From: Cladocopium goreaui
Lineage: Eukaryota; Sar; Dinophyceae; Suessiales; Symbiodiniaceae
Direction of reading: 5' to 3'
NCBI GenBank assembly: GCA_947184155.2
Contig: CAMXCT020001840.1
Span: forward strand, 1 to 64,000
Length of the DNA stretch: 64,000 bases
Shown here: positions 1-55,574 of the stretch, in pieces
Layout of the letters: the number at the start of each line of letters is the position of its first letter
Position numbering within the stretch: the stretch's first letter is position 1
Position numbers and translations under genes: made by a program
Notes under the pieces: model-generated
What the model was told of the DNA's origin: nothing
Databases searched by the model: none
What the model saw: the letters and a program-made list of their open reading frames with translations, nothing else

Positions 1-110
1 GCATCATCATCATCGGGACCTTCCATGTCCACATTCTGTTGCTCTGATCCTGGGATGTGAGCGATCTTGTCCTTTCCAGCTACCCAGATGTAGCCATCGA
101 GCTTTGTAGA
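1..110 (-). pseudogene. Continuation of retroelement ORF3 in another frame
   Basis: From about position 110 to the left edge, the minus strand is open in a frame different from the ORF that stops at 80-82. It reads a protein-like stretch containing GYIWVAGKDKIAHIPG and ending in an acidic run. A single indel around 110-180 would join it to the ORF on its right. The coding part of the element therefore probably continues beyond the window. I do not recognise the product. Confidence 0.45.
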
Positions 111-1057
111 TGTGTGGAAGTCACCTGAACCGCATTCCCTGACCTTTGTCCTTGCTCTTGCAGATTGATGGAATGCTTCATGCTGAAAGAATTGATTGTA
201 GGCATGTTCAACAAGAATCTGTAGGATTGAGCTGTCAATTCCTTTCTGCTATCCACAAATTGTCGAAGCTTGTTCAAAGCAAAAACTGTGAAATGGCTAA
301 AGCTAGCAGGTGCTTCATCTTCATACAGATCGATTGCCATGATCATCATCTTTGTGGAAAACGAGAAATGCCGTTCAGGTTCAGGGATGACTGTTCTCTT
401 GTTCATGGGAACTGTAATTCCTTGGATAGTCATGTCATACCCATGAGTGTTCAACTCCAGTGCATCCAAAATGTTACCATCACGGTCCTTCTTTCTCTTG
501 CAGAAATCTCCCCAGAGTTTGTTGTTCTCTCTAATGAACTGATCAAGATGCTTAGTGTAAAAGACAAAGACTGCTTCTGAGAGATACTCCATGTCCTTCT
601 GTATTGCTAAGTCTCTTTCGTATAGCAAGAACTTCTCTCTCCATTCGTCTCTGTTGATACTGTGTCTGTCTTCCCAACCTGTTGGGGCAACTTGACCTCG
701 CATCCAGTCTGTCCAATATTGTCGACAAGAGTTCATGTAACCTTCCATGGCGTCAATGTTTCCTTCTCGATGGAAGTGTGCCAACATGCGTCCAATCTCC
801 CAAGCTCTTGTGAAGAGTAAGCATAGATGTCCTGTCCATGGTAACTTCTCCCAGTCTGAGCGAGTGATCGATTGTCTACGAAGTGCTATCTTTTGTGAAG
901 AGAGTAGTAGGCTCCATTCACGCAGAACTATCACTTTTTCTCCTGAGGAGTTCTTGATGAGTTCACCGCTCTCTTCTCTTGCACAGACAATACCTGCCTC
1001 ATACAGGACCCAGGGATTCGATGCAGAAATTGAACTTTTGGTAGCCTGTTCTACCAC
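80..1057 (-). pseudogene. Distal part of retroelement ORF3, unknown helical protein
   Basis: A 325-codon open stretch in the same frame as the Tpt1-like ORF to its right, separated from it by one TGA and 12 sense codons. The codon at 1055-1057 is GTG, not ATG, so this is better read as a continuation behind a nonsense codon than as a separate gene. The protein is rich in charged and aromatic residues, looks mostly helical and has no motif I recognise. It stops at a TAG (80-82), but the neighbouring frame stays open to the window edge, so the true end is probably further left. Function unknown; it could be a second domain of the ORF3 product or an env-position protein. Confidence 0.55.
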
Positions 1058-1093
1058 AGGGTCTTCAATATCATCTGGTGGATCTTCTGCTTC

Positions 1094-2902
1094 TCAGAGA
1101 TTGACAGCCTCTTCACCCATTGGGTCGTCATGGACGTCCACTGATGGCTCCTCTTGTTGATTGTCTTGAGCATCTTGTTGAGGATCATCATGTTGTGGTG
1201 ATTCTGGACTTCCTGATGAGGAGCGTTGTTGCTCCCATGCATCTTGAGGTTCCTCTCTTTCTTGAGAGCGTCCTCTTCTTGATGGCTGTTCATATGGATT
1301 TTCCATGGGTTCATCAGCCTGCGCAGATACCTCTCTTTCTTGAGAGCCTTCTGCTGCAGATACCTCTCTTTCTCGAGAGCCTTCTGCTGCTGCACCATAG
1401 ATTGATTCCACAATCGGGTCAAAGTCATTCTCGTTGCATAGTGGTGTACCAAAAACTAATCTTCCATAGTTTTGTGGAACCTGTTGACCCATGAACTCCC
1501 ATGCTGTGATTCTGACTTCTTCAGGAATGTCTTGTCCAGGAATAAATGTTGGACCTTTCTCCTTCATGACATGGTTCCATGTTGTATTGGTGTGCCATGA
1601 ACCACCTGTAACTGATGGAGGTAGAGAATGACCACGTCCTTGATGAACAACGTTACATGCAATGGTAGGGAGTTGTTCCTTGACATGGAGGTACTGGAAA
1701 GGAATGTCACCATGAAATAAAATGACACCATTCCTTGTCAGATAGAGTTGGTTGTCCACAATAAAACTTGGATCCAACACGAGGTACACTGGTCGCCTAT
1801 AGTTTCTTGGAGGCTTCGTGCCCTCTGCCATCCTTATGTAGCCCTGACCATTGTCATTGTGGTACATGAAGTGAACTGCATCCCTTCTGCCTTTTCCACT
1901 TCCTTTCACAAAGGTCTTCAGGCCTGATTGTTGAATGGAATCTAAATTCATGTAATCAGTGACATGAAAAATCCAGCCCAAACTCATAGCCTCATCATAT
2001 GTCAGTTGGTGGGGTGCCACAGTGGGATCGACAACTTGGTTGCTATGTCCTTGAAAAGCACCAAGACGAACGTCGAATGGATACTCTGCCATTGAGCTAT
2101 ATGGGTACCACTGCCATCTCATGGAGATCTCAACAAAGAAACGTTGTTTTGGATTACACAGTAACATAGCAGCAAAATCTGCTCCAGACATGTGATATTC
2201 CTTGGGATTGTCTCCTTGCATCTGATCAAACAGTAAGGAAATGTTCATAGCTCCACTGGCAGTGAATAACGTTTTGTCTCTGCAATGTCTCAACACATTG
2301 GATAGCCTCTTGCTACATGACATATAATAACTTCTCCTTGATGAGCTAGTCATGTCCACGTGGAAATCATTGCATCGTTCATCAAACCAGTTTTCTTCTG
2401 CCTGAGTTGTAAAGCCACAGAGATACTTCAGAAAACTTGAAGTCCATTTCAAAGATTCATCAAATTCTCCATGACTAGTTCCCCAGTGCAAAATCCATGC
2501 TATTGCGTCCATGAACATTTCATGTCTGTCAGTTGGTCTCATGTTGTGTGGACCCATCAATGTATGTAAATTGCGCTCTATCTTCTTCCTCACTTTCTCG
2601 TGAGCCTGAAACCAATCTGTTTGGCGCCTGTAATCATAGCAAAATGATAAATGATCCTCGTTGGGCAATGTCGATGGTGTTCGAAATTTGTCAGCTGGGA
2701 TTTCCTCTGATCTTCTCAGAGCATATCCATCAGCTGAATGTCTTCGACTAAAATCATAGCTTTGATGTTCTTGACCTCGAGTGTTCGATTGTGCCTGATC
2801 ACTAGATGATGCGGCTGAGGCCCTGTTCCACCGGCTAGAGCTCGACATGTTGAAGAAACAGTGCGATCCTCGAGACTCTGCCTTTTTTTGAGCCGCAGGC
2901 AC
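1094..2902 (-). CDS. Retroelement ORF3 with complete Tpt1/KptA-like RNA 2'-phosphotransferase domain
   Basis: About 602 codons, numbered from the GTG at 2900-2902; the first ATG is at 2846-2848. Residues about 195-405 carry the Tpt1/KptA motifs in order. SKRLSNVLRH (197-206) gives the Arg-His of the N-terminal lobe. NPKQRFFVEI (251-260) matches the conserved K-x-RF strand. VRLGAFQGHS (278-287) matches the R-A-n-Q-G-H-S motif. FHVTDYMNLDSIQQSGL (312-328) is the NAD-binding H-x-T...GL motif. GRRDAVHFM (338-346) and LTRNGVIL (388-395) complete the ADP-ribosyltransferase-like core. Known enzymes use NAD+ to remove an internal RNA 2'-phosphate, and some ADP-ribosylate RNA or DNA ends. The N-terminal 190 residues are unassigned; the C-terminal 100 are acidic with two short repeats. 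The frame is the same as pol, after a TGA-CTA stop. Role in the element is inferred. Confidence 0.82.
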   Translation of the reverse strand: MPAAQKKAESRGSHCFFNMSSSSRWNRASAASSSDQAQSNTRGQEHQSYDFSRRHSADGYALRRSEEIPADKFRTPSTLPNEDHLSFCYDYRRQTDWFQAHEKVRKKIERNLHTLMGPHNMRPTDRHEMFMDAIAWILHWGTSHGEFDESLKWTSSFLKYLCGFTTQAEENWFDERCNDFHVDMTSSSRRSYYMSCSKRLSNVLRHCRDKTLFTASGAMNISLLFDQMQGDNPKEYHMSGADFAAMLLCNPKQRFFVEISMRWQWYPYSSMAEYPFDVRLGAFQGHSNQVVDPTVAPHQLTYDEAMSLGWIFHVTDYMNLDSIQQSGLKTFVKGSGKGRRDAVHFMYHNDNGQGYIRMAEGTKPPRNYRRPVYLVLDPSFIVDNQLYLTRNGVILFHGDIPFQYLHVKEQLPTIACNVVHQGRGHSLPPSVTGGSWHTNTTWNHVMKEKGPTFIPGQDIPEEVRITAWEFMGQQVPQNYGRLVFGTPLCNENDFDPIVESIYGAAAEGSREREVSAAEGSQEREVSAQADEPMENPYEQPSRRGRSQEREEPQDAWEQQRSSSGSPESPQHDDPQQDAQDNQQEEPSVDVHDDPMGEEAVNL

Positions 2903-2917
2903 AAATTCAAAAAATAG

Positions 2918-5900
2918 TCAAGAATCCCTCAAGGTGTCACCTAACAGAAATACACCATGTCTGAAATCAACATGACTGCAAACTGTTGGCAACCATGACC
3001 TGAGGTAAGCCTTGTGTTCCAGTAATGATCTGAATGGTGGATGAGCATCAACTTCTTTAAGAACACCTTGTCGAACAGCATCGATAAGATTCTGAGGATT
3101 GGCAGATTTCTTGGTCAGACAATCGGCTAAACACCATTGAGTTCTGATATGTGACAAGTCAGCAATGGAACCTGAACACGCTTCTTTCCTAAGCATCTGA
3201 ATCATATGAATGGTCTCTTGTTGTTCAGGAACATGAGTAGTGCTGGCAGTAGTCACAAGATTGTTTGCATCAGTCCTCATATGAATCTCACTTGAAAGTC
3301 CAGTGATGTCCTTGATCAGTCCTCTCAACATTTGACATGTACCATAACACTTCATGAGTGCATACAACTCTGCAACAGTTGTGCTCAACGTGGTACGGTT
3401 GATTTTGGTTGATTCAAAGAAAATAAGAGAACCTCTGGTGTTTTTGCTCTTTTCCTTTCTCGGTTCAGCCATGAAAATAACCATTGCGCGCTGTGAGGAT
3501 TTGTCGCTGTTGTTCCTAAACGCTGCATCTGGCATTGCAACTAATCTAGGATCACCTTGCAGTGGCCAGAACATAAGTTCCATCGGGTCACCTACAATTT
3601 GCCTGCAAAGTTTGTTCAGCGTTTTGCAATCACCTATGGTGGGGGAAGCAGCGGCAGAAGCACAACGTGAAAACTGATAACATGACTGAAATTGGGTTCT
3701 TGATTGTAACCAGTTGATACTACCTAAGAGTGATCTGTAGGCAGTGTGGAGATCCTTGTCACATTTGTCTTCATCCTTCAAACCTTTTGGTATGACAACC
3801 TCAGTAAGTTCACTGACACAAAGTGATTGTTCAACAGTGATGTGTGATTTCTTCTTGGTCTTTTCATCAATGATCCATTTCACACGTTGACCAGTGAACA
3901 TCAAGTCATTCACATCTTCATGACCAATCTTGAATTGTGACTTGACAACTTTCTTGAACTTCTCCAGAAACTCTGGAGTTCCAGGAATGAACAAGTCGTC
4001 AACATGCAAACAACACATGCCAATAGGTTTTCTTCCCTTGGCATTACTGCCATTCACAGGGTCCATGAAGTGTTCCAAGAGTTGTTCAACAATCTCTGGT
4101 GTCAACTGTGGTGTCGTGGCAAGATAAGGACGCTCTGAAGGTAAGAAGACTGAAACAAGTACTTCAGCTTCTTCTTCCAAACTTGTGGAAACATTGTCCT
4201 TGTTCATGTCATGATTCATCTCAAGCAACCACCAGACTCCTTTCCTCTTCACAATAGAAGTTCTCAAGTGAAACTTCTTTCGATCATAATGTGAATCAGG
4301 AGTTCTCAAGGCTTTTGCACGATAGGCAACTTGAGCATCACCATTTTCAAAAGGATACCAACCAGACTTGTGTTCAACAGATTCCAAAAACTTCAACAAA
4401 GTTTCATCAACAACAGGAGTCCAAGCACAATCTTCAACCTTCTTCTCCTTGAACTCTTTCCTCTGTTTCCATGTTTGGGTTTTTTGATAGCAAGCTGAAA
4501 ACAATCTTTCTTCAACCAAAAGGGACTTATGAACTTCCTCAGCAATGTCGGAGGATTCATCACGCGTTTCCTCACTGTCTTGTGAGCTTACGTAGTATGT
4601 CACAGGTGCTGGTTCTGTTGCCTCAGAGTCAGCAAAGCTAACCTGTTTTGGCTCCTTGAAAGCACCATCATAGCATACATATGTACACCTGTCAGCTCTT
4701 GTAGGTTGAATACCAAGCGAAATCAGAAATTTGTCAAGGCGGTTCCACCATCTACGTGGTGCGTCCGCAAGTCCATAGACGGAACGAGTGCACAAACCAA
4801 CCAAGTAAGGAGGCAAACCAATGTCAGTAGGCAACTGAACATGGATAACGCGGCGGTCTAAGTCGTATGTTTCCCCCTGAAGGAGGGCAGTTTTCAAGTC
4901 TAAATGGAGTAAATCCCAGTACATCGAGGCTGCATGCTGAGATGCCACACGAAAACCATACCTGGTAGCAGTAGGACTGTCAGTCTGTAAGTCATACTTT
5001 TGAGCATCTTGAAAGCCTCTACATACCCATCTAGCCTTGAACTTCTTGAACTGTCCATCCTTATCAACTTTGATGGTAAGCACCCATCTGCCAGTGACAT
5101 AATTATCAATCTTATGACGTCTCTTGTCTCTGAAAGTCATGGCAGTGAAATCCAGAAAACTTCTGAATTCTTCAAGCTTGGCTTGTTTGATATCCTTAGC
5201 ATACTTTCTCAAAACTTCTTGAGTGATAACTGATTCTGCCTTTGGCTGCTTCTTTCCATTCTTGGCAAGATACTGTTCAAACTGTTTGAATCCAGTAACA
5301 TCGTATGAACCAAACTCAGGTGCAGCTTGGACCTTTGGTCCTAAAGGAACGAAAACAGTACCATCAACATTGACAAAATGAGAGTGGTCTGATGTGTAAG
5401 GTTCAGTGTCCACATCTTCTTCCTGAAGCTGAGCAATGTCATCCTCAGTCAAAACAGGAGTGTCGTCTGTTTCATATGGTTCTGTTTCATCATCATCATG
5501 TTGTGATGATACCAATTCTGGTGTTCCTTGTGAAGACTGCTGTTGCGCTGGCTGCGCAAAGTCACCTGGCGTAAACGATGTTGGGGTAGTAGTAGGCAAT
5601 GGAATTGTATTATCATGTGAACTTGAGGCAGTAGGATCATGTGAAGGTCCTTCATCTTCATCTTCATAAGGTTTCTGAGTAGGAACTGAAATTGGCTGAA
5701 CATGACCTGGTAATTGAACCTTTGGCCTCTTGATAATCACCTTTGCCTTTGCCTTTGGTAAAGCATCAGTAGAATCAGTTGAGATCTGTCTCTGTTTCCT
5801 TTGAACTCTGATAGGCTCTGACGTCGGATCAGGTCCTGGTGGTGAATCGTCATCTTGTCCAGGATCAGCAATCTCTTCGATTGGAATGTCAGGATTGGAA

Positions 5901-6451
5901 AACGGAGTTGATGGTGAACTTGGTTGATGTGTTTCCCCCGAGTCCTGTATTCCTGGCATATCCAAATCATCATCAGGTGGTGGTCCATAATCATCTGGAA
6001 TGATATACTCTTGATCATCATCATCACCTGGATCGGGTCCAGTATTGTAATCAGGTTGATTATCATCATCCAGAGGATCTTCTGGTTCATCACCACTCAA
6101 CATCTCATCATCATTTGGTGGAACATCACCATGCTGATCTGGATGAATGGGATCGTCACCATTTGGTGGTGTGCTACTTGAACTAGGAGGATCTTCAACT
6201 CTCCTTTTGATAGCACCAGTCGTTTCTCGTGAAAAGACGATCATACTCCATTCATGGATTTTGAACTGTTCATGATGTGGATACAACTGTGACACAAACA
6301 TGAAGTAAACATGATCATAGTCACCAGGTTTCCAAATGAGTAAGACAGCATCTTCAGGATGTTGAAACAAAGGATTCACTCTTCCATTAAGTTCCTCTGA
6401 ACACACTGCAATCTTCAAAGTACATTTGAGGCAATGTCTTCTTTCTGACAT
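2918..6451 (-). CDS. Copia pol: acidic linker, reverse transcriptase with insertion, RNase H
   Basis: 1177 codons. Residues 1-75 continue the methyltransferase-like region and residues 80-360 are a D/P/S/T-rich linker. RT begins near 452 (YVTGRWVLTIKVD) with the first catalytic Asp at 518 (LHLDLKTALLQG), RSVYGLADAPRRWW at 556-569 and the active-site motif HVDD at 816-819, where copia RTs usually have YVDD. About 215 residues separate YVCYDG from HVDD, far more than in ordinary copia RTs. RNase H covers about 970-1115 with D975, E1028, D1061 and D1110 as likely metal ligands. The product copies element RNA into cDNA. The frame differs from the ORF to its right; it ends in TGA followed by CTA, in frame with ORF3. 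Confidence 0.92.
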   Translation of the reverse strand: MSERRHCLKCTLKIAVCSEELNGRVNPLFQHPEDAVLLIWKPGDYDHVYFMFVSQLYPHHEQFKIHEWSMIVFSRETTGAIKRRVEDPPSSSSTPPNGDDPIHPDQHGDVPPNDDEMLSGDEPEDPLDDDNQPDYNTGPDPGDDDDQEYIIPDDYGPPPDDDLDMPGIQDSGETHQPSSPSTPFSNPDIPIEEIADPGQDDDSPPGPDPTSEPIRVQRKQRQISTDSTDALPKAKAKVIIKRPKVQLPGHVQPISVPTQKPYEDEDEGPSHDPTASSSHDNTIPLPTTTPTSFTPGDFAQPAQQQSSQGTPELVSSQHDDDETEPYETDDTPVLTEDDIAQLQEEDVDTEPYTSDHSHFVNVDGTVFVPLGPKVQAAPEFGSYDVTGFKQFEQYLAKNGKKQPKAESVITQEVLRKYAKDIKQAKLEEFRSFLDFTAMTFRDKRRHKIDNYVTGRWVLTIKVDKDGQFKKFKARWVCRGFQDAQKYDLQTDSPTATRYGFRVASQHAASMYWDLLHLDLKTALLQGETYDLDRRVIHVQLPTDIGLPPYLVGLCTRSVYGLADAPRRWWNRLDKFLISLGIQPTRADRCTYVCYDGAFKEPKQVSFADSEATEPAPVTYYVSSQDSEETRDESSDIAEEVHKSLLVEERLFSACYQKTQTWKQRKEFKEKKVEDCAWTPVVDETLLKFLESVEHKSGWYPFENGDAQVAYRAKALRTPDSHYDRKKFHLRTSIVKRKGVWWLLEMNHDMNKDNVSTSLEEEAEVLVSVFLPSERPYLATTPQLTPEIVEQLLEHFMDPVNGSNAKGRKPIGMCCLHVDDLFIPGTPEFLEKFKKVVKSQFKIGHEDVNDLMFTGQRVKWIIDEKTKKKSHITVEQSLCVSELTEVVIPKGLKDEDKCDKDLHTAYRSLLGSINWLQSRTQFQSCYQFSRCASAAASPTIGDCKTLNKLCRQIVGDPMELMFWPLQGDPRLVAMPDAAFRNNSDKSSQRAMVIFMAEPRKEKSKNTRGSLIFFESTKINRTTLSTTVAELYALMKCYGTCQMLRGLIKDITGLSSEIHMRTDANNLVTTASTTHVPEQQETIHMIQMLRKEACSGSIADLSHIRTQWCLADCLTKKSANPQNLIDAVRQGVLKEVDAHPPFRSLLEHKAYLRSWLPTVCSHVDFRHGVFLLGDTLRDS

Positions 6452-7040
6452 CTTGAAGTCCAGGAATCAGTTCAATGATTCTGGGGTCAGTTGATTCTCT
6501 GACACTGGCCTCTGTACTCCTTGGCAACTGATCAATCTTCCTCAATGTTTGAACAAGTAACTGAGTGGTAAATCTCTGTGGAAGAATGTGCTTCAACGGC
6601 ACTGGAATCGAGGTCTCAACATGATGCAAATCTTGCAACAAACACGAGCACTCAGGTTCACGGTCCAAAAACATTGACGTGCCACACAATGCTCCATCAT
6701 CAAAATGTTCCAACAGATCTTCAAACAAGAAACATTGTCTCATGTTCTGCAAAGGTACAAGTTGTGTGAACTGCGCAATGAATGAACACAAGTGAGATGG
6801 TAAGACCTTCCATTGTGGATCATTCCAAAGCTTCCCTTCTCTATTGAAGGCATGCTGTGGTTCCAACATGTCAAAGTCTTCATCATGATTGTAATACACA
6901 CGCAAGTTCTTGATTGAAGGATCACAACGACAGTAATTTGTCATGTCAAGGTTGAAACAACCAATGTGATACTTGATTCTGTCCTTTCTGAAATTTCTTC
7001 CAAGCCAAAAACTGAGCAAATCCTGAATCAGGTGGTGCAA
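6387..7040 (-). pseudogene. Pol fragment linking integrase ORF and RT ORF (C-terminal half of methyltransferase-like domain)
   Basis: A 217-codon open stretch that overlaps the end of the integrase ORF and the start of the RT ORF, each in a different frame. Its first roughly 25 codons shadow the integrase frame; from about GCFNLDMTNYC onward it reads as the real protein. Residues such as CRCDPSIKNLRVYYN and WKVLPSHLCSFIAQ resemble the C-terminal part of the methyltransferase-like module of the pol polyprotein. One indel on each side (about 6980-7010 and 6400-6450) would restore a single pol frame. I read it as part of one broken pol gene rather than a separate protein. Confidence 0.7.
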
Positions 7041-9747
7041 TCACCAAGAAACCTTTTCCTCGGTCAGCTTGCCATTTCATCACATCAAGGCAAAACTTGA
7101 ATACTGAGTATTTCCAGGAATTTGGTGAAGGATTTGTGATCAACACGTACTCAGGATCAAGCTTCTCAAGTTGTTTCCAAACTTGGTTTTGTTTCTTTTT
7201 GCTGTTGAAACTCCAACCATGCTTGTGCTCAATGGGTTCACCAACCTTCATGTTCAATCGTGCCATGTGCCAACTAAGACCAGTGTTGCTACTGAAGAGT
7301 TCCACAACATCACATTTGCCAGTTTGACAAAACCAGTGAGCTTGTTCACCTAAGTAGGCTTCAGCATATTCAGCGATGTCTGGTTCATAGTCATCTTCAT
7401 CTTCAACTGCAAGTGGAACAGGTTCCGATGTGTCAAATCCAGGAACAGCAACATCATGCCATTCATCATGGTCACGTCTCACCTTCGATTGATTAACACG
7501 CATGACTGCGTTGTCAACATGAACATTGACCATAGCACCTTCTTGAGAGATAACAGTACCTCTGATCCATCTTTCCTTCTTCCATGCCTTTGAAGCAATA
7601 GCATTAGCATTGACAGGGGAACTCCAAACGAAAACCTTGTCACCTGGTTTGTAAGGTCCATCTGATGGCATTGTTCGTTTGGCCATGTCATGTCTGAGGT
7701 CAGCAGCTTGTCTGGCTTTCTGATGTGCCCTCAGTGCTAACCTTTGCAACTCGAGTTGTGTTCTGTCTTCAGGTAAAGGGTCAACACTAAGTTGAGCAGG
7801 ATCAGAAGTCTCAATATCCAGAAGATCTGGTGGTCTTCTACCAGTGGCAATTTCCAAAGGAGAATAACCACTAACAGTGAGTTGAGTGTTTCTGGCCCAA
7901 ACAGTACGCTTCACAGCTTCTCTGATGGTGATTCCTTTGAACCTATCATCTTCAAGTTTCTTGGACATGATTTGCCATTGTCGTTTGAAAAGTCTGACAG
8001 CTGATTCAGCTCTGTTAGGCCATGGGGTTCTTGAACCACAGGGACATTCCTTGATACCATGAGTTCGGTAATAAGTCAGAAAGTCTTCTTGAAAGAAAGC
8101 TTCATCACCTACAATGGCTTTAGGCATACAATTGTGTTCATCACTCCACAACCTTAGAGCCTGAATGGTCTCCTTGTTGTTCAGTGAGTTTTGTGCCGTA
8201 GCCCAAAGTAAGTTGGTTGCACCATCAAGAACAAGCAACACCATGTACTTGTTCTTCCTCAACTGAATTTCAGCATGATCAACAAAGATAACATCTCCAA
8301 AGTTGGTGGATCGTATGCCTGAAATTCTGGCTCGCGGCGGTGGTGCAATGGAAGTACTACACACACGACACTTGTTGTACATCTCCTCATACTTCTGATA
8401 GACAGAGTCAGGAAGTCCTAACATGGAAGTCCTTCGTCTGAATTGAGTAGGAGACATGTGATAGTGTTTGATATGAAGCTTGTAAAGTTCCACACTATCC
8501 TCCAGTTTCCTGAGCATCTTTCTGTATGCTGGTGTCATGGCTTGCACTTCACTACCAGGCAGTGGAATCGAAACTCGCCTAGGCTCAAGAGCATCACTAC
8601 CTAGTTTCTCAACTTGACTTTCTGAATCTTGCTTACCACGGTTGCGCGCAGGTGCAGAATGTTTTGGTTCAATGACTTGAGGTTCATCTGAATCAATTTT
8701 GTCCAAACCTAACTCCCTAGCTACCTTATCAAGCTCATCTTCTTCATCAAGCTTGGGATAGGAGACAACAACCTTCTTTCTTGATGAACCTGATTGAGAG
8801 TCATCGACAACCTGAGGTTTCTGCTTACCTACGTGTCTTTTGGCTGCAGGTGGACCTACCTCAATCTTTTTCGAGCCTGGTCCATTTGAAATCGGTTTGC
8901 CTTCCTCCTTCTTTAAGGAGCTTGGCTTCTTCTTCTGTACACCTGATGGCACTGAAGAGGCTGACTCAGGGTGAAAAAGATCATCAATGTTTCCACGAAA
9001 GGGCTTTGCACGATCAATGTCACTTCTGACAATGTCATCTGGGATCACGTAGTCCTCCTTGATCTTGTAGATGGTCTTGCCCTTCCAGAACTCTTCACTC
9101 TGTTCAGAAAACCTCTTCTTCTCAGTGCGCCAGTTGTCCTTGTGAAGAACCTTCTTCTTGCTCTTCTGGAATTCCATGTGGGTTTCTCTCTCATCAAGAA
9201 GTTGATCTTTTGGAATTGGAGTTTTCTCTGATCGAGTCATCTCATGTAAGTTCATTCTCTTGTCCTTGTGGTGCCTGATGAGTTCACGACGTAGTGGATC
9301 AACCTGCCAGTAGTCACCAGTCACCAAAGCTTCTCCTTCATGATCATCTTGTTTGACAGCAATCTGGCTGTACTCAAAGTGATCGTGTTGTGAATAGAAA
9401 CTTTTGACTTGTGGAGTCTTGAAATGAACTTGGCTCATGTACCATGCTACATCTTGTAGGTCGAGAATGAGATGAGTACTAATGGCTGTCCTCAAAACCA
9501 TTTTTCTCATGCCAATACGTGCACAGGACAAATAAGCCTTCTCTGGAGTAAGTTCAAATTGAAATCCAAGGTTTCTCATCTGTGGAAGTGACATCAACAA
9601 TGGGACATCACCTTCTTCGACAATGTCGAATTCTGTAAACTGAGTGTTCCATCCATGATCATACATGAATATCACGAGCTTCTCAGTACATTTTGATTGT
9701 TGTGAGTTTGCAAAAAAAGAATCTTGAACTTGTTGGCTGAATTTCAT
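6946..9747 (-). CDS. Copia pol: C-terminal protease, integrase, methyltransferase-like domain
   Basis: 933 codons. Residues 1-75 are the C-terminal part of the retropepsin (VPLLMSLPQMRNLGF at 48-62), whose active-site Asp lies in the Gag frame. The integrase zinc-binding region has H425, H428, H430, C460 and C463. The catalytic core has D490 (VIFVDHAEI), D548 (AIVGDEAFF) and E581 (PNRAESAVRLF), a complete DDE set for inserting cDNA into the genome. A chromatin- or DNA-binding tail follows to about 770. Residues 812-910 (CDVVELFSSNTGLSW, then TNPSPNSW and FLVIAPPDSGFAQ) follow the pattern of a C5-methyltransferase Rossmann fold, but Pro-Ser replaces the catalytic Pro-Cys. The ATG overlaps the Gag stop by 4 bases. 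The protein ends after a frameshift near 7000. Confidence 0.9.
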   Translation of the reverse strand: MKFSQQVQDSFFANSQQSKCTEKLVIFMYDHGWNTQFTEFDIVEEGDVPLLMSLPQMRNLGFQFELTPEKAYLSCARIGMRKMVLRTAISTHLILDLQDVAWYMSQVHFKTPQVKSFYSQHDHFEYSQIAVKQDDHEGEALVTGDYWQVDPLRRELIRHHKDKRMNLHEMTRSEKTPIPKDQLLDERETHMEFQKSKKKVLHKDNWRTEKKRFSEQSEEFWKGKTIYKIKEDYVIPDDIVRSDIDRAKPFRGNIDDLFHPESASSVPSGVQKKKPSSLKKEEGKPISNGPGSKKIEVGPPAAKRHVGKQKPQVVDDSQSGSSRKKVVVSYPKLDEEDELDKVARELGLDKIDSDEPQVIEPKHSAPARNRGKQDSESQVEKLGSDALEPRRVSIPLPGSEVQAMTPAYRKMLRKLEDSVELYKLHIKHYHMSPTQFRRRTSMLGLPDSVYQKYEEMYNKCRVCSTSIAPPPRARISGIRSTNFGDVIFVDHAEIQLRKNKYMVLLVLDGATNLLWATAQNSLNNKETIQALRLWSDEHNCMPKAIVGDEAFFQEDFLTYYRTHGIKECPCGSRTPWPNRAESAVRLFKRQWQIMSKKLEDDRFKGITIREAVKRTVWARNTQLTVSGYSPLEIATGRRPPDLLDIETSDPAQLSVDPLPEDRTQLELQRLALRAHQKARQAADLRHDMAKRTMPSDGPYKPGDKVFVWSSPVNANAIASKAWKKERWIRGTVISQEGAMVNVHVDNAVMRVNQSKVRRDHDEWHDVAVPGFDTSEPVPLAVEDEDDYEPDIAEYAEAYLGEQAHWFCQTGKCDVVELFSSNTGLSWHMARLNMKVGEPIEHKHGWSFNSKKKQNQVWKQLEKLDPEYVLITNPSPNSWKYSVFKFCLDVMKWQADRGKGFLVIAPPDSGFAQFLAWKKFQKGQNQVSHWLFQP

Positions 9748-11843
9748 ACCAGTCCACTGTTGGGATGTGAGTCAACATATCTGCAAAATGCTTCAACTGC
9801 TCGTCGAGAGCCCATAGCTCTTGTGCATCCAAGATCCAGAATACACACAGTTGGTGGTGCAGAATTCTCTGTGTGAAAAGCTAGTCCATTCTCACATGCC
9901 AGATCAGTTTGTACAGTATGAAATGAAAAAGCACTCTGCTGTGATGGTTCCTCTATCTCTGTAGAGCATCCATGTGAAAACAATGATGTGCCTTCTGCCA
10001 ATGGCTTCCATGAAGCCTCACCTTCTTGAAGACCAACTTGCCTGGGCACTACAGCTGGACGTTGTTGTACACCTTGTCGTAGTGCACCAACTTCTCCAAC
10101 CAGAACAGGGAATCTCTTCATTTCTCTCCTGTTTTGATGTGCTCTTGCATCACGTTGGTTCTGTCCTCCACGACGAGTACGTCGTTGTTCATCTTGTGCT
10201 GCATACGTGGATGTCAAAACATCAACACGTGCTGGCTCTGTCTCTGCAACATCAACACGTGCTGGTTCAGTTGTTCCAAATGAAAAGAAACCATGACCAG
10301 AACTTGAAGCTGCAGAAGAATAATGAGCTTGTTGAGTTGGTTGATTCTGTATGGCAGGAGCTGATGTGGTCTGAGGTTGAACATAGTTCGACTTGCCTTT
10401 TCCATCTCCTGGCTTTCCTCCTTTTCCATCATCATCCTTGCCTTTCTTGCCTTTCTTTCCTTTTCCTTTTCCTTTTCCTTTCTTCTGGAAGTATCCATAC
10501 TCATCCATGTAGTACAGATCATCATAGGCCCAATAGCCTTCATTCCAGGTTTGATCATCGGCCACATAGCCGTCATAGTTTTCATTCCATTCATCTTCTT
10601 GCCATTCATCTTCATAACCTTCTTCACTCACCATGTGAGCACGGCCTTTTCTTCTTCCTTTTCCTCGGCCTTTTCCTTTTCTTGATTTGAAGAACCTTCG
10701 TCCTCCTCTGCCTTTTCCTTTTCCTTTTCTCTTTCCTTTACCTTTGCCTCGTCTGATGTATTTGCCTTGGAACCTTCTCTGATACCATGTGAAGTTGGCG
10801 TCATCATAAACCCAGAAAACATCTTCTAAGGCATCCAGGAATCCTTCTGCGCCGTCTTCTTCATCTTCGGCCCAATAGCCGTCGGTTCCTTCTAATTCAC
10901 CTTCATCCAGTACGAGGAAAGATCTTCTCTGTGCCATGCCAGAGGGTTGCATCAATGGATTGTCAACTGCTGTTTTGGTAGTGCAAAACATTTCCAAAAA
11001 CAGGTCACATAGTTCTTGAATACTGTATCGATCGAGGGTTCGTCCACGATGTGTCATGATACTTGTGAGTGTGTTTCTCTGATCTTGACTCAGGTCAGCT
11101 AGACTTACAAAAATCAATGCTAGCAAATTTTCACCCAGTGGGAATGCTTGTCGCTGTGCTTCTCTACGATTTTCCTGAAATTGTCTGAATGCCGCTAGTG
11201 CCAGTTCATCTGTCCAAGGAACAGCTACATGGGGTGTTCCTGAGGCTGCTGCTACTTCAGCTCTCTCTTGTTGATCTCGTTCATGTTCTTGACGTCGTTG
11301 TTGAACAAACAGAATTGCTTCAGGACTAGTCACTGTTACTTCTGGAAGTAAATCCATCCAAGACTCAATAAGTCTATTGCCAGTGAGTTGAAATCTAGTC
11401 ATCCACTTCTGAAGATCCATGGTTCCTCTGTTGAACTTCATGAACTGCATGAAACGGTATAAGAACACGTTCTGGGCACCTTTGATGAAATGAGGTCGTA
11501 GAAATCTTTTGAAATAAGCCACTCCTTCATAGGGATCCCTGAGTAATTCTCTATCCAATAGCCTCTTGTATTGTTGAGCATCTCCTTCCAGTCTGTTGCG
11601 CAATGCTGGACCACGTTTCTCTGGTTCTAACTCCGTAATGTCACACCAGTCATCAATTGCATCCTCAAAAGCAAAGAAGCTGGTTCGCCCATCATAGGCT
11701 GGAGCAACCTTTGTGGTCATCTGTTGCGTCATATGAATCTGTGTATGCTGGGGTGCTCTTCTCATTGCATAAGAGTCATATTGGTTCCATTCATTTGCAT
11801 CGACAATGTCGAAGTCATCATCATCATAGCCATGGCTTGCCAT
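9744..11843 (-). CDS. Gag-protease ORF with KG-rich nucleocapsid region
   Basis: 699 codons from an ATG (MASHGYDDDDFD). Residues about 45-300 are the alpha-helical capsid-like region of copia Gag (WCDITELEPEKRGPALRNRL, YKRLLDRELLRDPYEGVAYF). No CCHC zinc knuckle is present. Instead there are two strongly basic stretches of KG/RG repeats (GKGKGKRKGKGKGRGG and KKGKGKGKGKKGKKGK) separated by an acidic, Tyr/Trp-rich segment; these probably bind RNA. The last 40 residues contain CILDLGCTRAMGS, the retropepsin active-site loop with D670 and D-L-G in place of D-T/S-G. The protease is cut by the stop at 9744-9746 and continues in the next ORF, so Gag and Pol were probably one polyprotein. Confidence 0.9.
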   Translation of the reverse strand: MASHGYDDDDFDIVDANEWNQYDSYAMRRAPQHTQIHMTQQMTTKVAPAYDGRTSFFAFEDAIDDWCDITELEPEKRGPALRNRLEGDAQQYKRLLDRELLRDPYEGVAYFKRFLRPHFIKGAQNVFLYRFMQFMKFNRGTMDLQKWMTRFQLTGNRLIESWMDLLPEVTVTSPEAILFVQQRRQEHERDQQERAEVAAASGTPHVAVPWTDELALAAFRQFQENRREAQRQAFPLGENLLALIFVSLADLSQDQRNTLTSIMTHRGRTLDRYSIQELCDLFLEMFCTTKTAVDNPLMQPSGMAQRRSFLVLDEGELEGTDGYWAEDEEDGAEGFLDALEDVFWVYDDANFTWYQRRFQGKYIRRGKGKGKRKGKGKGRGGRRFFKSRKGKGRGKGRRKGRAHMVSEEGYEDEWQEDEWNENYDGYVADDQTWNEGYWAYDDLYYMDEYGYFQKKGKGKGKGKKGKKGKDDDGKGGKPGDGKGKSNYVQPQTTSAPAIQNQPTQQAHYSSAASSSGHGFFSFGTTEPARVDVAETEPARVDVLTSTYAAQDEQRRTRRGGQNQRDARAHQNRREMKRFPVLVGEVGALRQGVQQRPAVVPRQVGLQEGEASWKPLAEGTSLFSHGCSTEIEEPSQQSAFSFHTVQTDLACENGLAFHTENSAPPTVCILDLGCTRAMGSRRAVEAFCRYVDSHPNSGLV

Positions 11844-11887
11844 TTCTTGGGCTCTACCTGGAGCTCACCCTCAATGAGGGATCACTG

Positions 11888-11898
11888 CTCCGCTACCA
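11888..11898 (-). promoter_or_regulatory. Candidate primer-binding site of the copia element
   Basis: The minus strand reads TGGTAGCGGAG about 50 bases upstream of the Gag ATG. Its first eight bases are complementary to the 3' end CGCTACCA known from initiator tRNA-Met of some eukaryotes. Two bases outward the plus strand reads TG (11901), the expected LTR terminal dinucleotide. The call rests on position and an eight-base match; the second LTR is outside the window. Confidence 0.4.
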
Positions 11899-12246
11899 CT
11901 TGAAGAGGGGCCCTAGCGTCTACTTCAAGATCAGCTAAGGCGTCTTCCCCAATGACAGCACTCTTTTACTCTCAGCCTGTTGCCGGTCAGTGCTTGTCTA
12001 CAGGGTTACTCTATATACCTCTTTCTTGAGCCTTGAAGGCGCATATAAATGTGCTCAATACTCATGCATGTACCTATGTAGGTATTAGGTCGAAACAAAA
12101 ACAAGGGCGCAGCGCCTCCCCCCAAAGCAGAATGCAAGCACCTCTTCTCACATGTTACGTTGCTAGTTTTCAAGAGAAGGTTGGTCATGTGATACTCAGG
12201 GATGTAAATACTGTGCAAAATGCATCTTACATGAAAATCAAGTATT
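11899..12246. other. Probable LTR or leader of the copia element, unconfirmed
   Basis: No ORF of substance. If the primer site is right, this stretch should be at least part of the 5' LTR. The minus strand has GTATATAG at 12011-12018, a possible TATA-like site, although dinoflagellate promoters usually lack a TATA box. The outer LTR end cannot be placed without the partner LTR. Confidence 0.35.
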
Positions 12247-12639: not shown

Positions 12640-15440
12640 CCTAAACCTGATCAAAAAAAAAATCCTAAAATAATTAGCCCTCCTTATTATATTTATGCAC
12701 GTCTTTTACCCTTCAGTTTCTCTATTGGTTGTTTGGGAGATTTGCCACACATCAGTTCCAATACTCATCACATGTAAAGTTCTGCTCAAGTTTTGAAGAA
12801 CGAATCTATTCTCTTTTGGACGTCAGGAACCTTTGTTGCATGTGGTGATCCGGTGATCCCTTCACTTGACTCGGGCCTTGCCCACTTACGTCACTTGCCC
12901 ACTTGTACTGCATCAAGAACAAGAAGAACCAAGACTCATTGCCACTGGCAGCAGGGGAAAGCGAGGCAGAACTGGCCGCAGCGGCGCCGTGTAGCTCGTC
13001 TGAAGCTCGAATCCCTCATTTTCATCACCTGTAATGCCTCCCAAGATATGCATTGAATTGAACTGTGATATGACCGCCCTTCCAACCCAAGGCTCTTGCA
13101 TGCTCTTCCTGTCTTCTTTGTTCTCTCTCATTCTATGATCACTCTCTCTATCTCTTCCGAAAACTCTACAGGGCAGGCCTGGAGCAGTCAAGCCAGGTTT
13201 ACTGTTGCTATTGGATCTGCCCACCCCAGGCTGTGCCTGAGACCTCACGAGATGTGAAGGTGAAGATAGGTGAAGACAATATGACAAATGCCATCGCTTT
13301 CGCAAGTGGCAGCAAGCGCGCTTGCATTTGTTTACTGAGTTTGCACCAAATCGAAGACAAGTGGCACAAACGATGGCTTGTGTGTGAAGAAAGGTGCAAG
13401 CAACACTTTGGTCTCTTGCACATGATTGTTGACCGATGCCTTCCTTGGATTTGCACGCGGAGAGCAGGTGCAAACCAATGCAAAAGAATGGATGCCAGCA
13501 GCAGGTGTTGCACTTCAAAATGCCTCGAAAGGCCACGCCTGTGGCATTTGGTCATAGCAAGTCTTAAAAATAGTGAGTTTTTGCTGATGATGGTGCCTCA
13601 GCTTGAACCACTGGGCCTTAGGGAGCCTTCTCTGACTTCCTTACACAAGCTGGGGCATACGACAGACTGCAAGGACCGGGACTGCGCTTCAGATCGGAGG
13701 CAAAAGCAATTCCAAAATATTCCAAGCATCAGCAAATCTTGGTACAACACTCGATCCACAGGGTCCGAGAAAGCGATCGACTCCTTGCAAAATCATTGTG
13801 TGACTATACACTGCAAAGGCCAGGGTGCTCCAACGGGACAACGATTCTTGGAACTCACAGGCTGGGCATGACTGCACCAACATTGCTTAGCAGCCAGAAT
13901 GTTACAAAAATGCCAGAAGTGATTCAGAGTCTTCACAATTACTTTACTACTTCACGACTTTATACTTTACAACATTTCCAACTGTCTACACAACAATATG
14001 ACATTATATGACTATTAATTATATGCTTCACATGATTTCATATGATTTTGGAAACGAAGACTTTAGCCTTTCTGCCATGTCGCGGTTTGAGCCAGCAGCC
14101 CTCGCAGCATCTGCAGGGCGGCAGCGCCAGGTGAAGCCGCTGCCGCAAGTGCAAGGTGCAGAAAGTTCAGGTCCTTGGAGACGAAAAAAATCCTGGGATG
14201 TCTCCAGGATGTCTCAAGCCTTCTCAAGACAGGGAGAGATGATGTATGATGATGTATGCTGATGTAATGCAAGCCGGGGAGCAAAGAGCCACTGAAGGAG
14301 GTGTGACATTCCTCTGCAGCAAAGATTTGTTCAGTCCGTTGACGATGCCACTGAAAGCTTTGAAGGAACACCACATGAGCTTCGATTTCCAGACCGTCGT
14401 GAAACACTCTACAGATCTCTACAGGCTCTAGCGACTCTAGCGATCAGATTTCAATCTGGGCCAGGCCTGACCGCTTCAATCGAGCTAGGTCGGATGGTTT
14501 GTCCTCATGTGCGCTTCCAATTTGCATTAAAGCAAGGAACAAAGGAATGTATAAACATGTGTGCTCGTAATTGCAAATGACATCTGTGTAATTATACGGT
14601 ACGTGTTTATATATATATAATTATATATAATTATATATATATACTTGTAACTTGTAAATATCAGATTATTTTAGTATGATTATGATTTGATTTAATATCT
14701 GAATTGACTTACGCGTATGTGCATTTATGTCATTTATCTCTGTGTGTGTGTGCGTTGCATCTGGCATGATATATCGATACGCAATCATTTGTGAGACATT
14801 GCATTTGCACATTCATAAGACATTTTAGCTATCATCCAATCTTTCGATCCACCTACCGGTCCCAAAATGAGCAGGGCACCGCTCAGAAATCATCTGTTGT
14901 GATGTCAAATGTACGCCGTGTCCGTCGAATTAATTGAAGCGTGTGCATCCATGGATTCTGATCTATCTATATAAGTCTATGGATCTATGTATCCATCTAT
15001 GTATCTGCTGTCTATCAACCTGTAACTCCCCTCAAACAGCCACACTGCATTTGGCATTGTTGACTTGTTGACACTGCGGCGACACTGCGCCTCCGTAGCC
15101 GATTCCAATTATATTATATATATATATATTATGTCGGTACATGATGTTGCATGTAGTTGATGGTAGTTGTGGGATATGTTTATTCATCTTGTATCTGGCT
15201 GAGTGCGCATGCCTCCAGCTGCCTGAGAAAACTGCCAGCCTCGTAGGCTGCTGCAAAGCACTCGGCAAGTGCTGCTTTCAAAGCAGCCGCTGCGGGTGTG
15301 CTGCCTCTCGATGGTCGCTGTCCAGGCACCCCAGTTTCAAATCCGCCGACCCCGGCCTTGGCCAAGGCAGGGGCGGCGCCTGGGGCCACCGCAGGTGTGG
15401 AACTTCTCCTTCTTCGCTTTCCACGGTCAAACCCATCTTG
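12640..15440. other. Gene-poor region
   Basis: No ORF here has a recognisable domain. An AT microsatellite lies at about 14608-14645 and another at 15110-15130. I see no tRNA, rRNA or transposon motif. Confidence 0.5.
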
Positions 15441-15464
15441 CAGCCATCAAGCTACATCAATAGC

Positions 15465-18005
15465 TTCTTATGGCCACTCTTGCAGGCAACAGGCACCCCA
15501 GCCAACATGCACCCCAGGGCCACACATCAATGGCTTCTTATGGGCGTCCAAGTCTGCCCTTTGCCAGCCCTAAAACCCTCCAAACGCTCCAAACCCTCCA
15601 AACCCTTAAAACCCTCCAAACCCTTAAAAACCGTAAAACCCTTAAAACGTTGACTTGGCATGCTTCATCCTGGCCACACCAACTTATGGCCACCCCGGCG
15701 CCCAGGCAACAGGCACCCCAGCCAACATGCACCCCAGGGCCACACATCAATGGCTTCTTATGGGCGTCCAAGTCTGCCCTTTGCCAGCCCTAAAACCCTC
15801 CAAACGCCGCGTCCAACCACCCTCCAAACCCTTAAAACCGTCCAAACCCTTAAAAACCGTAAAACCCTTAAAACGTTGACTTGGCATGCTTCATCCTGCA
15901 GCCAACAGCCACCCCGCGCCACACATCAATGGCTTCTTATGGCCGCTCTTGCAGCCAACCGGCACCCCAGGGCCACACATCAATGGCTTCTTATGGGCGT
16001 CCAAGTCTGCCGTTTGCCAGCCCTAAAACCCTCCAAACCCTTAAAACGCTCCAAACCCTTAAAACCCTCCAAACCCTTACAAACCGTAAAACCCTTAAAA
16101 CGTTGACTTGGCATGCTTCATCCTGCAGCCAACAGCCACCCCGCGCCACACATCAATGGCTTCTTATGGCCACTCTTGCAGCTAACCGGCACCCCAGGGC
16201 CACACCTCAATGGCTTCTTATGGGCGTCCAAGTCTGCCGTTTGCCAGCCCTAAAACTCTCCAAACCCTTAAAACGCTCCAAACCCTCCAAACCCTTAAAA
16301 CCCTCCAAACCCTTAAAAACCGTAAAACCCTTAAAACGTTGACTTGGCATGCTTCATCCTGCAACCAACAGCCACCCCGCGCCACACATCANNNNNNNNN
16401 NNNNNNNNNNNNNNNNNNNNNNNNNNNNNNNNNNNNNNNNNNNNNNNNNNNNNNNNNNNNNNNNNNNNNNNNNNNNNNNNNNNNNNNNNNNAACCAACAG
16501 CCACCCCGCGCCACACATCAACGGCTTCTTCTGGCCACTCTTGCAGCTAACCGGCACCCCAGGGCCACACATCAATGGCTTCTTATGGGCGTCCAAGTCT
16601 GCCGTTTGCCAGCCCTAAAACCCTCCAAACCCTTAAAACGCTCCAACCCCTCCAAACCCTTAAAACCCTCCAAACCCTTAAAAACCGTAAAACCCTTAAA
16701 ACGTTGACTTGGCATGCTTCATCCTGCAGCCAACAGCCACCCCGCGCCACACAGCAATGGCTTCTTATGGCCACTCTTGCAGCCAACCGGCACCCCAGGG
16801 CCACACATCAATGGCTTCTTATGGGCGTCCAAGTCTGCCGTTTGCCAGCCCTAAAACCCTCCAAACCCTTAAAACGCTCCAAACCCTCCAAACCCTTAAA
16901 ACCCTCCAAACCCTTAAAAACCGTAAAACCCTTATTAAAACGTTGACTTGGCATGCTTCATCCTGCAACCAACAGCCACCCCGCGCCACACATCAATGGC
17001 TTCTTTTGGCCACTCTTGCCGCTAACCGGCACCCCAGGGCCACACATCAATGGCTTCTTATGGGCGTCCAAGTCTGCCGTTTGCCAGCCCTAAAACCCTC
17101 CAAACCCTTAAAACGCTCCAAACCCTCCAAACCCTTAAAACCCTCCAAACCCTTAAAAACCGTAAAACCCTTAAAACGTTGACTTGGCATGCATCATCCT
17201 GCAACCAACAGCCCCGCGCCACACATCAATGGCTTCTTATGGCCACTCTTGCAGCCAACCGGCACCCCAGGGCCACACATCAATGGCTTCTTATGGGCGT
17301 CCAAGTCTGCCGTTTGCCAGCCCTAAAACCCTCCAAACCCTTCAAAACCGTAAAACCCTTAAAACGTTGACTTGGCATGCTTCATCCTGCAGCCAACAGC
17401 CACCCCGCGCCACACCCCTTAAAACGCTCCAAACCCTCCAAACCCTTAAAACCGTCCAAACCCTTAAAAACCGTAAAACCCTTAAAACGTTGACTTGGCA
17501 TGCTTCATCCTGCAGCCAACAGCCACCCCGCGCCACACATCAATGGCTTCTTATGGCCACTCTTGCAGCCATCCGGTTCTTATGGCCACTCTTGCAGGCA
17601 ACAGGCACCCCAGCCAAAATGCACCCCAGGGCCACACATCAATGGCTTCTTATGGGCGTCCAAGTCTGCCCTTTGCCAGCCCTAAAACCCTCCAAACGCT
17701 CCAAACCCTCCAAACCCTTAAAACCCTCCAAACCCTTAAAAACCGTAAAACCCTTAAAACGTTGACTTGGCATGCTTCATCCTGCAACCAACAGCCACCC
17801 CGCGCCACACATCAATGGCTTCTTATGGCCACTCTTGCAGCTAACCGGCACCCCAGGGCCACACATCAATGGCTTCTTATGGGCGTCCAAGTCTGCCCTT
17901 TGCCAGCCCTAAAACCCTCCAAACGCTCCAAACCCTCCAAACCCTTAAAACCCTCCAAACCCTTAAAAACCGTAAAACCCTTAAAACGTTGCCTTGGCAA
18001 GCTTC
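15465..18005 (+). repeat. Tandem array of about 225-240 bp units with telomere-like blocks
   Basis: The marker GTTGACTTGGCATGC recurs with its first base at 15649, 15875, 16102, 16338, 16703, 16942, 17178, 17366, 17489 and 17761, and in altered form at 17988. Most spacings are 226-239 bases, with shortened (123, 188) and lengthened (272) units. Each unit has a GC-rich half (GCCACACATCAATGGCTTC repeated) and a half made of CCCTAAAACCCTCCAAACCC and CCCTTAAAA blocks, close to the TTTAGGG-type telomere repeat read on the C-rich strand. The 100-base gap lies inside. All forward frames are open for long stretches because the unit has few stops; I do not regard these as genes. Confidence 0.92.
16392..16491. 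other. Assembly gap (100 N)
   Basis: A run of exactly 100 N inside the tandem array, the usual placeholder for a gap of unknown size. The true number of repeat units is therefore unknown. Confidence 0.99.
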
Positions 18006-18009
18006 ATCC

Positions 18010-19700
18010 TGCAAGACTGTGGGCTATCAAGACAGTCCCTAGCAACCTTTCGCACAAATAAAGCCTGCGTAGCTGCAGCGATCTCAACAGGAGACATGCG
18101 CATTAGAAGGTCTTGGATGTCTTGGGGTGTTTCACAGTCTTTCATCCTGGTGGCGTCGCCACAATGACGTCATGAGTATTCCCCAATTTCTATCATCATT
18201 CCACTTTTGCGAATGGAATGCATGTAATGTACTATATATATATACATACGTATGTTTAACAATGTTTAGGCCTAGCCGTTTGCTGGGCTTCTTGAGTGGC
18301 TCTATGTCTGCGCACTTCTTCCTCCACCCTTGAAACGGGGTCGGCGGCACCAGGGCGTTAGCCCATTTTAATTGAAAGTGTGACATTTTTGAACTGTGAC
18401 CTGCCTTTCAACTTGGCCGATGCCAGACTTTGCGAGGCAAAGGTCAGGCGCTCGAAAACAAAGGCTGATGATTGAATGGGCACTGCAACGGACTTTGCCT
18501 GCCAGTTTGACATAGACCAGTTTTGCTGAAGGAGCTGAACATATCAAGTGCCAAGATGTGCCAAGCAGCTTGTCCAAAAATGTCCAAAAGGCAACGCAAA
18601 CCTTTCAACCCAGCACCATCCAGCACCATGGGTTTGGCAGCTGGGCCTCCCCCTCACGAGCTGGAAACTTCGCACTGCCCCAGCCACAAGCAGGGCCTGC
18701 TGCAGTGTAGCTGTGTTCTTGTCCATGTCTGAGGGCCCGCCCACACCAAATGGCAGTGATATTAGATTAAATTGGAATAGCATCCACCGATTTTAAACTA
18801 TAGCAGCTACAGCAAGCTAAAACATGCGGTAACTACAGACTGGAGGCCATGATATAGCCTCTTTCCTGGAGCAGAGGCACCTAAAAGGGACAGTACAAGG
18901 GATAACGAATCTACATGCAGTCTACATGTAGTCTACATGTAGTCTACATGTAGTCTACGTTGTCTTTTTCGAGTTCATGACTGGGTCAGGTCGCCAGGGT
19001 GGCCCAGCTTGAGCAGCAGGATCGCTTAACGAGGAGAGAACCGGGGCGCTTCATATCGCTTCTTAGCGCTTAGCATGGCCTCACCCTGCCTGACCACCCA
19101 CATCCAACACTGGGACAGCACGACAGTTTGACAATGTTTGCCGTAGAATCGAGAACAGGACCAGCACTATGAACAAAGTAGAACCGTACGCAGGTGCGCA
19201 GAACACTGCGCCTAATGGCAGAATGCAGCACAGAAACTGTTTCAAAAACATCTCTCTGCACTCTGGGGCGCCAAGAATGCAGAACATCCGAACAATGAAA
19301 ATGAAGGGAAGGTGATGAAACTACAAGCTGGAGAACTAAGAAGAAATAAGTCAAGGGTGAAAGAAAAATGATGGCAGAGATGCACCGTGCGGAAAAGTTT
19401 CTTCAATGTTTTCTGCCACGCGATGCCACGCCGCTTTCGGTGACAAAGGTGATTTCAACAAGAGAAGTCAAGGGCGGGCCCCAAAATATAGGCTGAGCTG
19501 GGTCACTGATGGAAACTCAATGGAGAGATTGTGAAGGTTAAACTGACTGTTAGTACCATTTTCTAGATACTTGCAGTCACTTGCAGTGGGGCGGTTTCTT
19601 CCAATCAGTGCACTCTAGCACGCTCGAGGACTAGGAGTGAACCTACACAGAAAAAACACATTTGAGCGGCGTCGAAAACCGGGTAGCGATTAGGTTCTAA
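18010..19700. other. Gene-poor region with a short 12-bp repeat
   Basis: No convincing gene. A short tandem of TCTACATGTAG lies at about 18910-18960. ORFs are short and without recognisable motifs. Confidence 0.5.
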
Positions 19701-26777: not shown

Positions 26778-26849
26778 AGGCCGAACCGCTGAAGGACATC
26801 GCTGGTGTTGTGCTGCAGGAGCATGCTGGTGGCCAGGTGGGCTGGCGAG

Positions 26850-50740: not shown

Positions 50741-50744
50741 CGTT

Positions 50745-51250: not shown

Positions 51251-51286
<36 letters not shown>

Positions 51287-54640: not shown

Positions 54641-54644
54641 GCGT

Positions 54645-55572: not shown

Positions 55573-55574
55573 GG

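Follow-up and report, generated by a model that had tools for sequence, protein, structure and literature searches.

Does an enzyme gene that lies directly behind the pol gene of a retrotransposon belong to that element, and if so, what would the element use it for? This question is raised by a 64,000-nucleotide stretch of the Cladocopium goreaui genome (contig CAMXCT020001840.1, positions 1 to 64,000; hereafter the window). The window holds a broken Ty1/copia copy at the contig end, the full element being ~15.7 kb. On its minus strand, an open reading frame (ORF) resembling the RNA 2'-phosphotransferase Tpt1/KptA follows pol. We observed that the first part of this frame (ORF2; 607 codons, 1094..2917, minus strand, first ATG at 2848) directly adjoins the pol ORF 6466-2918, stays in the pol frame and is separated from it by a single TGA. 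This agrees with the original prediction of a Tpt1-type ORF directly behind a copia pol, in the same frame and with all the listed motifs in order.

The identity of the domain was evaluated with profiles and predicted structures. The Pfam profile PTS_2-RNA (PF01885) matched ORF residues 200-401 (1715..2320, minus strand) with an E-value of 3.1e-9 and 37.6 bits, above the cut-off of 26, a significant match in the profile test that the original prediction had set beforehand. The same profile scored 59.1 bits in the relative P0083 and 50.3 bits in P0114. A profile built from 19 sequences did retrieve Tpt1 among the chains of the Protein Data Bank (PDB), and the best 16 structure matches to the predicted model of a close homologue were all Tpt1/KptA. 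This model also showed the two-lobed fold of these enzymes (a winged-helix RNA lobe and an ADP-ribosyltransferase-type NAD lobe), while identity to the solved Tpt1/KptA enzymes was ~19-25% in the aligned parts. Two results speak against the assignment. The window ORF, searched as a single sequence against the PDB chains, retrieved no Tpt1, and the cut-offs of the NCBIfam RNA 2'-phosphotransferase equivalogs were missed (NF002014 and NF002013, 22.4 vs 239 and 14 vs 231 bits). The missed equivalog cut-offs indicate a distant member of the Tpt1/KptA family rather than a near-identical bacterial-type KptA.

Tpt1 moves ADP-ribose from NAD+ onto the RNA 2'-phosphate and releases RNA with a 2'-OH (passages of PMC6333775 and PMC9503650). 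The catalytic Arg-His-Arg-Arg tetrad was intact in 49 of the 55 near-full-length domains that we counted (38 partial domains were left out), and the window's domain was among the 49. All the enzyme residues named in the original prediction are present; the third member of the tetrad, however, is the Arg of NPKQRF and not that of VRLGAFQGHS, as concluded from the alignment to solved Tpt1s and the Cth numbering given in a passage of PMC6333775. Positions of the NAD lobe were near invariant across the 55 domains (R in 55, H in 54, N and G of NGV in 54). Cellular Tpt1 sequences are absent from the trees of these domains, which are uninformative as to origin.

The remaining six domains had an incomplete tetrad, which is a further point against an active enzyme: four carried a substitution (P0064, P0065, P0070 and P0073) and two were without the LRH stretch in the alignment. 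The four substitutions, together with an ORF2 that is very long and mostly without assigned function, would fit a domain whose fold is retained to bind RNA, NAD+ or a partner in Gag/Pol, or to act as a decoy in counter-defence, with its catalysis unused by the element. We consider this quite unlikely. All four catalytic residues stand in the great majority of the domains and are kept also at 37-38% identity, and the substituted domains can be dead copies.

The domain was also sought outside the window. In G000, the 1.17 Gb genome to which the window belongs, 72 loci were scored among 2,003 candidates; they had 98-100% identity with no stops within the match, and the ORF2 frame was open for 1,894-1,901 codons in 26 of them. 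Six copies were compared, each fetched as separate pieces. A repeat of ~200 bp, running from TGTTTTTG to TCTTCA, flanked gag and ORF2 in five of the six, and these direct TG...CA long terminal repeats (LTRs) enclosed gag-pol together with an ORF2 of 1,894-1,897 codons, with LTR-to-LTR spans of 15,723-15,738 bp. The 3' piece of the sixth copy (C865) enters unread bases (N). The paired LTRs showed 0-5 mismatches across 198-199 aligned bases, with 0-6 gap columns in addition, and since they hardly differ, the insertions look young. A single gag-pol ORF, measured from stop to stop, was seen in C5915 (2,981 codons) and C2446 (2,983 codons), and was broken in the other four. A 3,472-codon frame at locus L004 was also considered as a natural fusion and was rejected, as its 3' side enters N.

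A protein collection gave 89 proteins that match ORF residues 100-520, some of which may derive from G000. In four proteins a single chain contains both RNase H and Tpt1. Of these, P0115 lies near the window sequence, and the three divergent ones, P0114, P0116 and P0117, share 56, 48 and 36% domain identity with it. These observations bear on the simplest alternative, in which a host Tpt1 gene or pseudogene came to lie beside a dead copia element by chance. The window copy, broken both in gag-pol and in ORF2, could be taken that way. The same ORF with the same pol end was found at no fewer than 72 loci (that is, at least 72), the LTRs surround it in five of six copies, and the joint chains recur in divergent proteins, so that we give a chance neighbour almost no credence.

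Selection on the domain was estimated from L039, a more diverged copy, compared with L001, L002, L005, L018 and L020. In the Tpt1 region dS, the synonymous rate, was 0.146-0.161 and dN, the non-synonymous rate, was 0.015-0.019, giving a dN/dS of 0.10-0.13; this is the dN/dS check that had been proposed with the original prediction. The corresponding values were 0.29-0.33 for the ORF2 N-terminal region, 0.22-0.25 for the region behind Tpt1 and 0.00-0.03 for RNase H. As the five partner loci are nearly alike, the whole set amounts to about one single comparison. The summed pairwise pN/pS (the same ratio, for differences within the family) among L001-L020 was 0.11 in the Tpt1 region and carries little weight, because only seven codons vary there within the 20 loci, which is a point to be set against the case for selection. 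The tetrad kept at the low identities noted above is the stronger sign that the domain is kept for function. Judged by these substitution patterns, the analysis shows the Tpt1 domain to be under purifying selection.

Together, the LTR-bounded copies, the high copy number, the purifying selection and the mostly intact tetrad rule out a chance insertion, and support the conclusion that a copia retrotransposon carries a Tpt1/KptA-type gene as part of its own coding region. The missed NCBIfam cut-offs, the negative PDB search and the few variable codons leave the LTR-bounded copies and the tetrad, the basis of this reading, untouched. The original prediction that a retrotransposon carries the domain is upheld by the same four lines of evidence, and the finding that it had named as its refutation, a domain confined to this one locus, did not emerge. 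Its description of the Tpt1 as complete holds for the domain; it does not hold for the gene, as ORF2 of the window copy is cut by the TGA at 1096-1094.

We further examined how ORF2 might be expressed. The boundary with pol reads UGA CUA in frame (TGA and CTA, 2915..2920, minus strand, with the TGA at 2920-2918), and the codons from there to the first ATG of ORF2 (2849..2914, minus strand) are in the same frame. We compared 81 junctions, made up of the 72 scored loci, L039 and eight more out of 29 further loci. TGA CTA was present in 76 of them, TGA TTA in one and a sense codon in four. The pol frame continued open after the stop in 72 of the 81, over the 20-22 codons read; an altered T-run shifts the frame between stop and ATG in nine. 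The ATG lies 66 nt behind the stop in 28 loci and 69 nt behind it in the window, and no ATG was found in the other 52 junctions, where the fetched stretch was mostly too short to reach one. At 29 loci RNase H and Tpt1 could be aligned as one piece: 24 of these had one TGA, one had two TGA, three had a TGA plus another stop, and one had none.

A passage of PMC4359377 gives UGA CUA as the consensus sequence of stop codons with high readthrough in human cells and genes, and this context suggests that a Pol-Tpt1 readthrough protein may be made. Readthrough at UGA CUA would yield a Gag-Pol-Tpt1 protein of ~4,880 residues (2,981-2,983 plus 1,894-1,897 codons), which would pack an NAD+-dependent RNA-healing enzyme with the RNA genome; we hold this fuller proposal to be possible, though on the unlikely side. 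Three results count against readthrough. In the 22-codon spacer, L039 differs from the five copies by 0 synonymous and 2-3 non-synonymous changes, so no constraint at the protein level is visible there. RNA structure behind the stop was not significant (z -1.29, with an equally long stem in 324 of 2,000 shuffles). As the copies share 98-99% identity, a recent burst alone may explain why the TGA is conserved. We also considered a normally open pol-Tpt1 frame, an idea that came from P0115 and P0114. This was rejected, since 77 of the 81 junctions have the TGA and only four the sense codon; the open-frame versions P0115 and P0114 may be single-copy variants.

ORF2 could also be made without readthrough, as a separate ORF from its own mRNA trans-spliced to a spliced leader (SL), or after re-initiation at the ATG that follows the stop by 66 or 69 nt. 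Four of five copies checked (L024, L027, L030 and L033) have the sequence GGCTCAAG, which corresponds to the final 8 nt of the dinoflagellate SL (passage of PMC6050394), at a distance of 26 nt from the TGA, counted to its first base. Elsewhere on the coding strand it occurs only in the LTRs, and C5915 has it in the LTRs only. GGCTCAAG at the junction may be a trans-splice relic, as its presence at two such places within 15.7 kb would hint; against this, the match is weak, because ~0.24 such 8-base matches per strand are expected by chance in 15.7 kb. The nine junctions with a shifted frame, the spacer without visible constraint and the ~70 codons that part the RNase H end from the Tpt1 part in P0117 also speak for a separate ORF2. 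We regard a separate ORF2 as a serious possibility, a little short of even odds, and from the sequences at hand readthrough and expression from a separate mRNA appear about equally likely.

As to function, the original prediction put forward RNA repair, end protection and counter-defence as hypothetical roles. We favour the reading that a Ty1/copia family has incorporated Tpt1/KptA, and that ORF2, made by readthrough or from its own ATG, would remove 2'-phosphates from the element RNA or its primer. We give this reading as a whole a probability of roughly 0.45. Some ORF2 product would arise by readthrough from Pol, by a start at its own ATG, or in both ways, and Tpt1 would thereby enter the particle together with the element RNA. 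If host nucleases cut the element's genomic RNA or its tRNA primer, a tRNA-type ligase would reseal the breaks, leaving 2'-phosphates. Tpt1 would then strip these 2'-phosphates using NAD+, clearing the template for reverse transcription. For this role the host would have to possess an RNA ligase of the fungal/plant type, a demand that tells against it.

The main rival on function, and the nearest one, is that the domain might act as an RNA/DNA ADP-ribosyltransferase, capping the phosphate ends of element RNA or cDNA against nucleases, sensors and end-joining. ADP-ribosylation of RNA has reportedly been observed for TRPT1 and PARPs. Structures of TkoKptA in the PDB, by their titles with 5'-p-ADPR-DNA and NAD+, were among the fold matches, and the near invariance of the NAD-lobe positions examined would suit such an activity. 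The tetrad, which grips the 3'-PO4 and 2'-PO4 of the splice junction, is mostly kept, and a pure end-capper would not obviously need it; we judge capping unlikely. If 2'-phosphate removal is the role of the domain, this would suggest that retroelement RNA or primers are targets of host cleavage. A retroelement able to repair its template or primer would, as far as we know, be the first of its kind. A retrotransposon that keeps Tpt1 under selection would offer a system for testing RNA damage and repair as a step of retrotransposition.

The rest of the window copy was read on the minus strand, where the order from right to left is 5' LTR, a site resembling a primer-binding site (PBS), gag, pol in three overlapping ORFs, and ORF2. 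Base 1 of the window is the start of contig C1840, and the 3' part of the copy with its 3' LTR is outside the assembly. The 5' LTR (11901..12103, minus strand; 203 bases, TGTTTTTG...CTCTTCA) has the sequence seen in the LTR pairs of the other copies, its ends being set by eye. The PBS-like site TGGTAGCGGAGC (11887..11898, minus strand) was likewise found by eye, 2 nt inside the 5' LTR. It starts with TGG, as expected where a primer site complements the 3' CCA end of a tRNA. No tRNA genes or Rfam families were found in the window. Drosophila copia is said to use half-tRNA priming. We did not favour such priming as the reason for a 2'-phosphatase, as the TGG start fits an intact tRNA 3' CCA end.

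The gag part (9744..11864, minus strand; 706 codons stop to stop, ATG at 11843) had no Pfam match. The protease and integrase part of pol (6946..9771, minus strand) was recognised by reading, and its frame is broken in the window copy; no Pfam integrase match was found upstream of the reverse transcriptase (6946-9771), the integrase being read by eye. It is followed by the middle overlapping ORF (6387-7040, minus strand) and by the reverse transcriptase and RNase H part (2918..6466, minus strand), in which RVT_2 (PF07727) matched with an E-value of 1.2e-16. The RNase H that the original prediction had placed ahead of ORF2 is there by reading, with the tail CLADCLTKK common to copia relatives; it has no Pfam match of its own, whereas RVT_2 just upstream does match.

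The flanks of the insertions were also compared. GCCCT, a possible target-site duplication, was present on both sides in C5075 and C158; a duplication was unclear in the other three copies, which have low-complexity flanks. Insertion sites resemble one another: GGGGGGAGGCGCTGCGCCCT precedes the 5' LTR in the window (12104-12130), C5075 and C158 (5' flanks L030 and L033), and in four of five copies (L025, L028, L031 and L034) the sequence next to the 3' LTR is GCCCTCCC. These shared flanks look as if a GC-rich, palindrome-like target were preferred.

Past the TGA of the window copy, the middle region of ORF2 continues (80..1093, minus strand), and this continuation is unbroken in P0010, P0015 and P0106; the middle region had no Pfam or NCBIfam match. 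Towards the C-terminus of ORF2, conserved stretches (MFWNLGNW, NCEA, AGDGNKA and DH/GDHN) were seen by eye in P0090, P0100, P0102, P0107, P0108 and P0113. Their order is that of the motifs of endonuclease/exonuclease/phosphatase (EEP) nucleases. No EEP match to the C-terminus was obtained in Pfam, in a PDB sequence search or with hhalign, and its comparison with the endonuclease of the window's own long interspersed nuclear element (LINE) was negative. The AlphaFold model of the C-terminus had a mean confidence (pLDDT) of 37.7, too poor for a fold search, and in the fold searches made no structure convincingly covered ORF2 outside the Tpt1 domain, that part not having been modelled alone. If an EEP-type nuclease/phosphatase does lie at the far end of ORF2, the ORF might encode a whole RNA-end processing unit.

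The LINE-type element lies at 24414-27941 (minus strand). Its ORF 24414-26849 matched Exo_endo_phos (E 3.3e-7) and RVT_1 (E 2.2e-21), and the preceding ORF 26850-27941 may, by position only, be LINE ORF1. Long stretches that by eye appear to be of low complexity or tandem-repeat-like, with mechanical ORFs of repeated peptides, are at 15099-18061 and 49935-62606.

How does this element compare with known systems? The domain shares with Tpt1/KptA (PF01885; yeast Tpt1, human TRPT1, bacterial and archaeal KptA) the profile, the predicted two-lobed fold, the tetrad and the QGHS and NGV motifs. The known members are small stand-alone proteins, whereas here the domain sits within a retrotransposon ORF of ~1,894 codons. 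The element itself resembles Symbiodinium Ty1/copia (P0118-P0125, and RE1 of S. natans, P0127), which also have RVT_2 and a similar RNase H tail. Counted from the beginning of the CLADCLTK motif, those pol proteins extend for ~70 residues, while the window family has the long second ORF bearing Tpt1. Most copia pols with a CLADCLTK-type motif likewise end soon after it without Tpt1, as judged from the proteins only, the downstream DNA of those relatives being outside view.

A retrotransposon with Tpt1/KptA was not among the matches listed in the open-licence PMC literature, judged by titles and the starts of abstracts (subscription papers being outside this scope), so that nothing listed contradicted the novelty claimed in the original prediction; five of the top-ranked papers, in which Tpt1 occurs together with the word retrotransposon (PMC9498494, PMC3558436, PMC5124317, PMC4053983 and PMC3549820), were judged in this way too. 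The words retrotransposon, retroelement and copia had no match in the text of PMC9503650. KptA domains in the polyproteins of a Beihai picorna-like virus and a Botrylloides leachii nidovirus, and in Bodo saltans mimivirus, are described in a passage of the same paper and interpreted there as repair of nuclease-cut RNA (PMC9503650). As in our element, the KptA of these polyproteins, as far as that passage goes, is inside a selfish element that uses RNA, but its carriers are viruses and not LTR retrotransposons. Symbiodinium retrotransposons that captured a nucleic-acid-modifying enzyme with its key residues kept are also on record, namely SymbioLINE-Dnmt and SymbioDIRS-Dnmt3 (passage of PMC5890265). 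Enzyme passengers in Symbiodinium retrotransposons, and KptA in RNA-virus polyproteins, are therefore already known from these sources. If our favoured reading of 2'-phosphate removal is true, RNA repair would join DNA methylation among the functions that these algal retrotransposons took from cells. The two Symbiodinium examples, as that passage presents them, are a LINE and a DIRS element with a DNA cytosine methyltransferase, whereas the family described here is an LTR/copia element with a predicted NAD+-dependent RNA enzyme.
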